This document shows, in pieces, positions 508 through 35,032 of a stretch of 36,960 nucleotides of DNA. The notes under the pieces were generated by a model. That model was not told where the DNA came from. It worked only from the letters and a program-made list of their open reading frames with translations, and did no database searches. Each line of letters begins with the position of its first letter. The stretch's first letter is position 1. The position numbers were made by a program, and so were the translations under genes. The stretch comes from Armatimonadota bacterium (GTDB lineage: Bacteria; Sysuimicrobiota; Sysuimicrobiia; Sysuimicrobiales; Humicultoraceae). The stretch lies in assembly GCA_031459715.1 (NCBI GenBank), contig JAVKIA010000023.1:1-36960 (forward strand), written 5' to 3'.

Positions 508-1266
508 ATGTCCAGCCACTTCGCTTGCATCGGGTTCCCCGTCCGCGAGATGCACGAGTACACGGCCCTGATGCGGACCGCGGCGGCCCGCGGGGAGCGC
601 CTGCCCCTGCCCGGGGGCGGGGCGTTAGTGCGCTGGGAGGTGGGCGGTGGGCCCGAGATCTGGGTGCTGGCCGACGCCCGGGGAGAGGTGGTAAACGCCA
701 CACCCTTCTACCATACCGGCACATGGCTGCGTGTGGCCATCACGGCGCATGGCGAAGATGTCGACGAGGCGGCGGAAGGATGGCTGGAGGGCTGGGTGGA
801 GCCGGCGGAGGCCGACGAGCCCCTTTCCGGGGCCTTCCCGGTGCGCATCGACCTGGTGAACTTCGCTCTGGCGCGGACACACCTGCGGGTGGGCGCAGTG
901 GTGCCCGTGGAGTTCTGCGGCATCGCCCATGAAGCAGCGCTCTATCCCGACGCTGCCGCTTACGGGGCGGCCAGTCAGGCGCAGTACCGGCCGCCCATGC
1001 GCTCGTTCCTCTCCGTGGCGCACTTCGCCGCCGACCAGCCGCCGGGGGAGCCGGAAGCCACAGCACTGATCTCCGGCGTGGTGGACGAGGCCCGCCTGTT
1101 GACCAACGGCGAGACCGGGGCGTCCTACTGGCGCCTGGGCGTGGCCACCGAGCGGGTCACGGTGTGGGTGCTGGCCGACGGGGAGACCCTGCCGGTGGAG
1201 CCGCACAGCGGCAACATCATTGCCGCCTCCTGCTGGATCATCGGCCGGGTCATTCTCCCTGGATGA
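508..1266 (+). CDS. Uncharacterised protein, 252 aa
   Basis: I do not recognise this family. The protein starts at ATG 508 after a good GAGGAG ribosome binding site. It has no signal peptide and no membrane helix. Two segments look related: PEIWVLADARGEV (about residues 49-61) and VTVWVLADGETLPVE (about residues 220-234), each a beta-rich stretch with the core WVLAD. This suggests an internal duplication or two similar beta folds. No Cys/His metal cluster or nucleotide-binding loop is visible. The last 17 bp overlap the 3' end of the convergent ndk. Codon use resembles the neighbours, so it looks like a resident expressed gene. A role cannot be assigned from sequence or context. Confidence 0.75.
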   Translation: MSSHFACIGFPVREMHEYTALMRTAAARGERLPLPGGGALVRWEVGGGPEIWVLADARGEVVNATPFYHTGTWLRVAITAHGEDVDEAAEGWLEGWVEPAEADEPLSGAFPVRIDLVNFALARTHLRVGAVVPVEFCGIAHEAALYPDAAAYGAASQAQYRPPMRSFLSVAHFAADQPPGEPEATALISGVVDEARLLTNGETGASYWRLGVATERVTVWVLADGETLPVEPHSGNIIAASCWIIGRVILPG

Positions 1267-1846
1267 GGACCTCGTCCACCCGCCGGTAGGTGAAAAGCTC
1301 CTCCGGACGGAACCACAGGCCGATCTCGAAGTCCGCCTCCTCCACGGTGCCGGAAGCATGGATGAGGTTGCGCACGGGACGGCGCTGCAGGTTGGCCACC
1401 GTGGGCGAGTCGATGGAGAAGTCGCCGCGGATGGTGCCCGGGGCGGCGCGGAACGGCAGCGTGTCGCCCACGAGCTTGCGCGCCGTGCCCACCGCCTGAA
1501 TGCCCTCCAGGACAAAGGCCACCACCGGGCTGCTGGCCACATAGTCGATGAGCCAGCGGCGCACAGCCCGGCCGATGGCCAGCGGGTCGTCGCTCCCGGT
1601 TTGCTCCTTCACGTCCAGCCCCGCGGCGGCAAAGGCCTCCCGGGTCTTGCCGCCCAGGGTCCGCAGGAAGTCCTCGGTCTTGGGGTAGTGCTGTTCCAGG
1701 AAGTCGGGTGTCGGCTGCACCATCTTCAGCCCGATGATCTTCAGACCGGCGCGCTCGAAGCGGCGCAGCACCTCACCCACCAGCCCCCTCTGCACCCCGT
1801 CGGGCTTGATGAAGATCAACGTGCGTTCATGTCGGACCCCAGGCAT
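1250..1846 (-). CDS. ndk: Nucleoside-diphosphate kinase, long form
   Basis: Transfers the gamma phosphate from ATP to nucleoside diphosphates through a phosphohistidine. Seen: the N-terminal TLIFIKPDGVQRGLVGE signature, SSPVVAFVLEG, the GDTLPFRAAPGTIRGDFSI block and the active-site segment RNLIHASGTVEEA with His163. At 198 aa it is longer than the usual 130-150 aa. About 30 extra residues lie after EQHY (roughly residues 58-92), a long-form arrangement. The usual Asp after the catalytic HxS is replaced by Gly (HASG instead of HGSD). The start is ATG 1846-1844, preceded by GGGAGG at a spacing of 7; an upstream in-frame ATG at 1951 has no such support. The gene is convergent with the unknown gene at 508 and overlaps it by 17 bp. 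Confidence 0.93.
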   Translation of the reverse strand: MPGVRHERTLIFIKPDGVQRGLVGEVLRRFERAGLKIIGLKMVQPTPDFLEQHYPKTEDFLRTLGGKTREAFAAAGLDVKEQTGSDDPLAIGRAVRRWLIDYVASSPVVAFVLEGIQAVGTARKLVGDTLPFRAAPGTIRGDFSIDSPTVANLQRRPVRNLIHASGTVEEADFEIGLWFRPEELFTYRRVDEVLIQGE

Positions 1847-1946: not shown

Positions 1947-1993
1947 ACCACGTGTGTATGCGACGACGGTCCGTCGTCGTTTACACATGTGGT
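1947..1993. repeat. 47-nt near-perfect palindrome
   Basis: The two halves are reverse complements around T1970. Of 23 pairs, 20 are Watson-Crick, two are G-T (1960/1980 and 1952/1988) and one is a mismatch (1959/1981). The core is CGACGACGG-T-CCGTCGTCG (1961-1979), flanked by GTGTA/TACAC and ACCAC/GTGGT-type arms. There is no T-run, so it is not a typical intrinsic terminator. It lies between ndk (starting at 1846, leftward) and the mutY remnant (rightward). It could be an extended hairpin, a protein-binding operator, a REP/MITE-like element or a recombination site. The symmetry is read directly; the function is unknown. Confidence 0.85.
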
Positions 1994-2046: not shown

Positions 2047-2343
2047 GTGGTGGTGAAGCGCCGGGAAACCGTCTTCACCCGCCGCCTGCCCCGCTGGTAC
2101 CGCCGTCACGGGCAGGACCTGCCGTGGCGCCGCACACGGGCTCCCTACCGCATTCCGGTCTCCGAGGTCATGCTGCGATAGACTCAGGTGGAGCGGGTGG
2201 TGCCCAAGTACCGGGAGTTCCTCCGGCGCTACCCATCCATCCGCCACCCGGCCCACGCGCTGACGGATTTCGGGGCGGCGGTATGCGCGGCGGGCTGTCC
2301 CCGGTGCTCTGCTTGCCCGATGCAGAAAATCTGCCGCAGCTAA
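2047..2343 (+). pseudogene. mutY: mutY remnant with amber codon and in-frame internal deletion
   Basis: Adenine DNA glycosylase remnant. The first part reads VVVKRRETVF, then WYRRHGQDLPWRRTR, APYRIPVSEVMLR, a TAG at 2179-2181, then TQVERVVPKYREFLRRYP. This is the MutY N-terminus, where TAG replaces the second Gln of the usual MLQQTQV. In the same frame the sequence then jumps to ALTDFGAAVCAAG-CPRCSACP-MQKICRS and a TAA at 2341-2343. That is the C-terminal iron-sulfur loop with exact Cys-x6-Cys-x2-Cys-x5-Cys spacing. The helix-hairpin-helix and catalytic Asp region between them (well over 100 residues) is missing. Without it there can be no glycosylase activity. The 5' limit is unclear: GTG codons lie at 2047-2055 and an upstream ATG at 2008. 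The stop overlaps the 3' end of nth. An assembly collapse is a possible alternative to a real deletion. Confidence 0.85.
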
Positions 2344-3122
2344 CCCCGCCTGGCCCGTGCAGCGCTCACGCGGCCACCCCGCCGCGCCCCCTGAGCGGAA
2401 GCCCGTTGGGCTGCACGCCGGGGCCCCGGCTGGCTCATCCACGGGGGCGCGCCCCGGTAGGTGGCCGAAGGGCAGAGAGGGTTCAGCGGGCAGGCTGGAC
2501 AGCGGGGGTTTCGCGCCGTGCAAATCTCCCGGCCCAGGAAGATCAGCCGCAGGGAGAAGGCGGTCCACTCCTCGCGGGGCACCAGGCGCATCAGATCTTG
2601 CTCGATCACGTCGGGATCGTCCGACCCGGTGAGGGCCAGACGCTGGCTGAGGCGACGCACATGAGTGTCTACCACAACACCCGGAACGCCGTAGTAGCCG
2701 CCGAGGACGACGTTGGCCGTCTTCCGCCCGACGCCCTCCAGCTGCAGCAAGTCCTCCATGGTGCGCGGCATCTCGCCGCCGAAGCGCTCCACCAGCGTGC
2801 GCGAGGCCGCCATAATGGCCTTCGCCTTCTGCCGGAAGAAGCCGGTGGGCCGGATGAGGGCTTCCAGCTCCCGGGGGTCGGCGGCGGCGAAGTCCGCCGG
2901 CGTCCGGTAGCGCTGGAAGAGGAGCGGGGTCACCTGGTTGACCCTGGCGTCCGTGCACTGCGCGGAGAGGATGGTGGCCACCAAGAGCTGGAAGGCGTTC
3001 TCATGGCGCAGGGGGATGCGTGCCTGGGGATAGTGCTGCCGCAACCTGGCAGCGATCTTCCGCGCCCGGGCGCGTGCGGCTGGGAGAGCCTCGCGGGTGG
3101 GCAGACGAAGGGGTTCGGGCAC
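2340..3122 (-). CDS. nth: Endonuclease III (DNA glycosylase/AP lyase)
   Basis: Base-excision repair enzyme that removes oxidised pyrimidines and cuts at abasic sites. Seen: NAFQLLVATILSAQCTD, the helix-hairpin-helix LEGVGRKTANVVL with the catalytic Lys, VVVDTHVRRLSQRL with the catalytic Asp, and the Fe-S loop CTARNPRCPACPLNPLC (Cys-x6-Cys-x2-Cys-x5-Cys). The start is GTG 3122-3120; a GGAG lies somewhat far upstream. After the Fe-S loop there is a basic, low-complexity tail of about 40 residues rich in Ala, Arg and Gly that is not typical of the family. It may be a run-on into sequence once non-coding. The gene faces the mutY remnant and their stop codons overlap. The core assignment is firm. 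Confidence 0.95.
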   Translation of the reverse strand: MPEPLRLPTREALPAARARARKIAARLRQHYPQARIPLRHENAFQLLVATILSAQCTDARVNQVTPLLFQRYRTPADFAAADPRELEALIRPTGFFRQKAKAIMAASRTLVERFGGEMPRTMEDLLQLEGVGRKTANVVLGGYYGVPGVVVDTHVRRLSQRLALTGSDDPDVIEQDLMRLVPREEWTAFSLRLIFLGREICTARNPRCPACPLNPLCPSATYRGAPPWMSQPGPRRAAQRASAQGARRGGRVSAARARRG

Positions 3123-31786: not shown

Positions 31787-34144
<2,358 letters not shown>

Positions 34145-34153
34145 GAGCGGGGG

Positions 34154-35032
34154 TCAGCCGCTGCCCACCTCCTGCGGGTAGGGGCGATCGATCTGCGCGG
34201 CAAGCTCGGCCCCGAAGAGCAGAATCGCCGCCGACAGGTACATCCACACCAGGAAGACGATGATGCCCGTGAGCGACCCGTACACCAGCTGGTAACGGGC
34301 AAAGGTCTGCAGGTACCAGAAGAAGGCGTGCTTGATGCCCTCGAAGAGCGCCCCCGCCGTCACCGCCCCGGCCACGGTGCGTGACCAGGGCAGCCTCACG
34401 TTGGGCAGGTAGCGGTAGATCACCAGGAAGGTCAGGCTGCTCAACCCCAGGGGGACCAGGGCGGAGGCCAGCCGCGCCAGCGGAGTGCCGCCGACCGTGG
34501 CCATGGCCCGGACCAGCCCAGGAAAGGCCGCCAGCACCTGGAGAAGGGCCGAGGTGAGGAGGGAGAGGAGGATGAAGGCGCCGGCCATTACGATCAGTCC
34601 CAGGTCCAACAGCTTCCCCAGGAGGAAGGAGCGGCGGCGCGGCACGCGGAGGAGGCGGTTGAGGGCGTTGCGCAGGGTGGCCGCCACGGCGGTGGCGCTC
34701 CAGACGAGGCCGACGATGGCCAGGGCGCCGAACGTGCCCCGCAGGCGGACGGTCTCGGCGACGTTGCGGTCAACGAACTCTGCGGTGGCGGGCGGCAGGT
34801 AGTGGGAGAGGGTCTCGGCGATAGCCCGACGCACGTCGATCTCGTTGACCACCAGGCCGGCGGCGGCCACGATGGCCAGCAGCAGCGGGAAGATGGAAAA
34901 GAGCGCCGAGTAGGCGATGGCGGCGGCCAGCTCAAACGCCCCGTCCTGCAGGAACCGTTTGTAGGCCTCCGTGACCACCCAGAGCGGCCGGATGCGGGGA
35001 AGAGCCGGCGACCGGCTCAGCGAGAGGCGCAC
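34154..35032 (-). CDS. YihY/virulence factor BrkB family membrane protein
   Basis: Inner-membrane protein of unknown exact function; the family was once misnamed RNase BN. The 292-aa protein has about six helices, e.g. FELAAAIAYSALFSIFPLLLA (family motif AxAISYYxLFSIFPLLL), FGALAIVGLVWSATAVAAT, and the C-terminal YGSLTGIIVFLVWMYLSAAI with LFGAELAA. The start is GTG 35032. TACAAT lies 9 nt upstream, so the mRNA may be leaderless. It converges on the otsAB fusion gene. Confidence 0.9.
   Translation of the reverse strand: MRLSLSRSPALPRIRPLWVVTEAYKRFLQDGAFELAAAIAYSALFSIFPLLLAIVAAAGLVVNEIDVRRAIAETLSHYLPPATAEFVDRNVAETVRLRGTFGALAIVGLVWSATAVAATLRNALNRLLRVPRRRSFLLGKLLDLGLIVMAGAFILLSLLTSALLQVLAAFPGLVRAMATVGGTPLARLASALVPLGLSSLTFLVIYRYLPNVRLPWSRTVAGAVTAGALFEGIKHAFFWYLQTFARYQLVYGSLTGIIVFLVWMYLSAAILLFGAELAAQIDRPYPQEVGSG

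Follow-up and report, generated by a model that had tools for sequence, protein, structure and literature searches.

What is a near-perfect palindrome of 47 nt doing in the gap between ndk and the remnant of a mutY gene, i.e. is it a scar beside a damaged gene, a mobile repeat, or a site that a protein may bind? We analyzed it within a window of 36,960 nt (the whole stretch of DNA under study) from a draft genome of 75 contigs (G000), and compared it with a congener (G001, the MAG "Armatimonadetes bacterium CSP1-3") and with a member of another genus, g6, of the same family (G006). The features of the window are as follows:

1250–1846, minus strand: ndk, nucleoside-diphosphate kinase, start 95 bp from the site; conserved in relatives
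1942–1998, no strand: full site of about 57 bp, from comparison with relatives (alignments A3-A5, models R1-R3)
1947–1993, no strand: 47-nt palindrome of the original prediction, 20/23 Watson-Crick
1950–1956, no strand: left outer module ACGTGTG (consensus ACRTGTG), k14-20 conserved, G000 and G001 copies
1964–1976, no strand: central module CGACGGTCCGTCG, a palindrome about position 1970 and the most conserved block (k1-6)
1984–1990, no strand: right outer module CACATGT, k14-20 conserved
1994–1997, no strand: outermost TGCA, from copy comparison
2047–2397, plus strand: mutY pseudogene, TIGR01084 match of its first 44 aa, end estimated from alignment, start about 50 bp from the site

The palindrome in the window

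A scan for inverted repeats over the whole window places the strongest one at this locus, with arms at 1947–1969 and 1971–1993 and 1 base between them. The arms pair at 20 of 23 positions by Watson-Crick rules, with 2 G-T pairs and 1 mismatch, just as originally described, and when the window was shuffled 300 times by a first-order Markov model, no odd palindrome of 20/23 arose (maximum 19, reached once). It was also correctly placed outside genes and credited with no T-run: it sits between ndk and the mutY remnant, and we find no match to an intrinsic terminator there. Folded as RNA, the palindrome reaches −38.5 kcal/mol (z = −5.3). The far left of the full site (1942–1946) is decayed in this copy. 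The window holds no tRNA or tmRNA, and another inverted repeat, of 15 nt with 93% complementarity and a loop of 15 nt, lies at 34119–34163.

Related copies occur in three genomes

The search for copies elsewhere that had been proposed proved positive. Used as a DNA query, the ndk-mutY stretch returns 5 further matches of ~50 bp in its own genome, at 78–84% identity, and pattern and profile searches bring the G000 total to ~10 copies (C23, C6:8.1k, C2:7.5k, C2:135k, C2:159k, C1:122k, C1:68k, and C1:39k, plus the weaker C36:17.5k and C3:39.7k). G001 carries ~11 copies, with exact-pattern matches in LDXQ01000024 and LDXQ01000005, and a broader model recovers 5 copies of a diverged form in G006. 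With ~25 related copies over these genomes, the palindrome is not a one-off.

The survey covered 61 genomes, i.e. G000 and 60 relatives, and the first model was strong only in G000 and G001. Among the 61, no confident copy was found outside G000, G001, and G006; weak matches there had E above 0.001, were mostly of the core only, and were treated as chance. As far as seen, the site appears confined to two genera of one family. The exact pattern is present in no viral contig of IMG/VR, and the phage matches were spurious and outside the palindrome; a phage origin was rejected. No description of such a site was found in the literature.

Eight of the 10 G000 copies lie on C1, C2, C3, and C6, although clustering of the sites is weak, in G000 as well. 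On contig C5 of G001, sites at 44.0k, 58.2k, and 73.0k fall within 29 kb, ~14–15 kb apart.

The copies share a rigid architecture

Copies have a constant build, in which a core rich in CGAC is followed by a rigid spacer, ACATGT on either side, and then TGCA, and the genus consensus reads approximately yTGCAnCGACATGTG-n-GCAnCGACGGWCCGTCGnTGC-n-CACATGTCGnTGCAr. The central CGACGGWCCGTCG and the outer CACATGT are conserved, whereas the intervening 7 bases lack conservation. The distance from outer to core centre is constant at 17.5 bp in copies of the genus, compared with 16.5 bp in G006, where the core is CGACG-TAT-CGTCG and the spacers differ from those of the other genus, being constant within G006 (CAGGATT).

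Some copies depart from this build. For example, G000 C1:39k is a degenerate tandem of ~3, and G000 C3:39.7k (L042 1501–1570) carries the 15-bp core CACGGTCCGTGGnnG as a triple direct repeat adjoining one outer module. In the degenerate orthologous site on C30 of G001 (L130 2192–2244), the core has changed symmetrically to CGACC-ATC-GGTCG; no other copy shows so clearly a change on one arm that is matched on the other.

Copies lie between genes and mostly upstream of one

All copies examined are outside predicted genes, and nearly all are upstream of a gene (the predictions are from our own codon-score script, with approximate exact starts). Of the 18 distinct loci, ~9 are flanked by divergent genes, 1 (G001 C3:12.2k) has convergent neighbors, and the rest are upstream of the downstream gene. 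Neighbors include ndk/mutY, a GAF-domain protein, Thioredox_DsbH (DUF255), asparaginase, GNAT/DUF1800, an ArsR-type regulator, an aldehyde dehydrogenase, and the sdh operon, with no obvious single pathway among them. The regulator gene, of ArsR/SmtB type, adjoins the G000 C2:135k site, and an HTH-TPR gene adjoins C1:39k. Both species have a site at the sdh operon: in G000 it separates sdhC from sdhD, i.e. lies inside the operon, and in G001 it is upstream of sdhA (L127/L128). The sdhC-sdhD gap measures ~105 bp in G000 vs 14 bp in G001; this difference of ~92 bp is larger than the element, and the junction is not clean.

Positions are shared between species and genera while sequences drift together

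For six of the 10 G000 sites, G001 has a counterpart between the orthologous genes (G000/G001 pairs C6:8k/C5:58k, C2:135k/C13:15k, C1:122k/C40, C1:68k/C25, C3:39.7k/C5:73k, and the degenerate C1:39k/C30), and these counterparts were all also recovered by whole-genome searches blind to position. The C3, C24, and C126 copies of G001 have no counterpart in G000. Beyond the genus, the DUF255 site is common to G000, G001, and G006, and the ndk/mutY site, absent from G001, is found in G006, where mutY is intact, between that gene and ndk. In G001, two genes named by eye as Gfo/Idh-like and PfkB-like separate ndk from mutY. Because the site is present in G006, its position predates the genus, and the insertion between ndk and mutY probably happened on the G001 side. 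The two intervening genes (L087, G001:C65, 2548–4699, reverse complement) are in neither the window nor G006, and the ndk-mutY gap of other relatives holds different genes.

At four shared positions, 79 of 96 motif bases are identical (82%) vs 62 of 128 (48%) for the rest of the element, a contrast that is inflated by picking the motif columns from the same data, although the sharing of positions is independent of that choice. The intergenic flanks there are largely unalignable. We find that orthologous copies resemble each other no more closely than nonorthologous ones do (36.25 vs 36.25 of 57), while copies within a genome agree at 39–41. Orthologs that are no closer, together with within-genome copies that are closer, fit sites that track a species-specific binder.

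An operator-like site is the favored reading

The comparison shows dispersed copies in intergenic places, a rigid architecture, positions common to species and to genera, and sequence that drifts in concert. These findings are consistent with a long operator-like DNA site for a putative symmetric, probably multimeric DNA-binding protein, a reading that we consider probable. A dyad-symmetric motif recurs at several promoter-region sites, and position and motif are conserved at orthologous genes where flanks are not (6/10 with G001; ndk/mutY and DUF255 with G006). We infer protein binding, a role in transcription regulation rather than in chromosome structuring, and the sign of the effect. The candidate protein would contact the three modules together on duplex DNA, each of them a palindrome composed of CGAC/GTCG half-sites (outer ACATGT, core CGACGnnnCGTCG, outer ACATGT), and ~10 such sites per genome in promoter regions, many of them between divergent genes, would control neighboring genes. 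At the window site, these would be ndk and the former mutY.

Transcription-factor operators resemble these sites in being intergenic, promoter-proximal, and dyad-symmetric in their half-sites, with conservation of the motif only, fixed spacing, and turnover of sites between species. The site described here differs in its three palindromic modules, matched here to no described operator, and in its ~57 bp, more than a bacterial operator usually spans. Evidence against the operator reading comes from this length, the lack of a single pathway, the convergent-gene copy, and the sdhC-sdhD copy inside its operon, and several sites are species-specific, which fits a mobile repeat too. The weak arm covariation of G001 and the choice of motif columns from the same data also count against it.

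If the sites are operators, what began as an isolated palindrome becomes one of a set: each genome has ~10 operator-like sites, and the phylum has, to our knowledge, almost no known regulators. The set supplies a consensus and candidate targets (ndk, DUF255, the GAF protein, asparaginase, DUF1800/GNAT, the ArsR-type regulator, the sdh operon, and aldehyde dehydrogenase), and it offers a natural two-genus comparison of a site set changing together with its putative binder. More tentatively, the ~57-bp three-palindrome site may be bound by a protein of this lineage that is new to description, either a global regulator or one that structures the nucleoid, its specificity and module spacing (17.5 vs 16.5 bp) having shifted between genera while several site positions stayed, i.e. 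cis-trans co-evolution across the site set.

Mobile repeats, chromosome sites, hairpins, and chance

Among the alternatives, it seems unlikely that the site is a mobile repeat of the MITE or REP kind, short and palindromic, that multiplied within the genus, has since begun to decay, and would have any function only secondarily, even if multiple intergenic copies, species-specific ones (sdhC-sdhD in G000; C3, C24, and C126 in G001), the tandem at C1:39k and the triple 15-bp cores at C3:39k in G000, and a consensus that differs by species all speak for it. REPs are sequences of 20–40 bp with a stem of 5–13 bp, a loop of 2–20 nt, and, at the foot of the stem, an unpaired tag (GTAG or CGTC), the GTAG types being associated with a Y1 tyrosine transposase (RAYT) and the CGTC types not (PMC3733652). 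The sites described here are likewise dispersed, extragenic, lineage-restricted palindromes, but they span ~57 bp, have no terminal loop and no tag in the consensus, and number ~10 copies in a genome with no Y1 transposase (PF01797, which did match control genomes).

With MITEs they share short length, inverted repeats, intergenic location, and partly species-specific positions. In contrast to MITEs, no parent transposon or IS with the site's ends was found, and a search for half-elements gave paired copies only, i.e. no isolated ones flanking a gene, in the two incomplete drafts of G000 and G001. Flanking direct repeats of 4–9 bp are in no excess over random places. Conservation is module-wise and confined to motif columns at positions common to species and even genera, and copies are nearly absent between convergent genes. 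Of the readings originally put forward (REP/MITE, recombination site, or strong operator), the operator is thus favored by fixed module spacing, orthologous intergenic conservation, and little arm covariation, whereas REP/MITE is disfavored by the lack of a REP tag, a Y1 transposase, and target duplications. Sites could also have spread by mobility and later been kept as operators.

We give still less credence to a site for a chromosome-organizing or segregation protein. Such parS-, matS-, or Noc-type sites are also short palindromes, at roughly ten per genome and with mixed neighbors, and ~10 sites per genome, functionally mixed neighbors, and mild clustering would suit this role. Known ones are, however, single palindromes of 13–16 bp, whereas the sites reported here are biased toward promoter regions and favor divergent gene pairs; their clustering is weak, on draft contigs that preclude ori/ter mapping.

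A hairpin acting in transcripts (an attenuator, an mRNA stabilizer, or a bidirectional terminator) is very improbable. The strong fold of the window copy would suit it, but the arms covary little or not at all, the match within a copy being no better than between copies (pooled P = 0.15; G000 P = 0.88, G001 P = 0.04, which is weak, and G006 P = 0.48). A hairpin would tie together the arms of each copy, so the missing excess argues against RNA or DNA hairpins, and it is what one expects when a protein reads the half-sites in double-stranded DNA. Unlinked arms would also arise if a perfect palindrome decayed neutrally, but decay by itself would not lose the spacers and still preserve modules and spacing. 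Further evidence against a hairpin includes the lack of a T-run and of a terminator match, an Rfam search that returned no family and only sub-threshold microRNA matches, the many copies that pair at only 12–18 of 28 positions, and the several located upstream of divergent starts.

Finally, the nearby pseudogene might point to a palindrome that arose by chance or as the scar of a single rearrangement next to the mutY deletion, but this reading is refuted by the ~25 copies and by the G006 site beside an intact mutY.

The mutY remnant

The predicted internal deletion of mutY is real: in the remnant, a stop at 2179–2181 ends the likely frame after 44 codons, and ~338 bp are missing near 2241/2253 relative to the intact G001 gene. 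We find no evidence that the palindrome caused this loss, because the deletion ends lie ~245–260 bp away from it. The suggestion that the palindrome promotes deletions in nearby DNA is not supported for mutY and was rejected, as the breakpoints are too distant and the G006 gene is intact with its own version of the site directly upstream. The mutY gene is apparently intact in G001, G004, G006, and G011.
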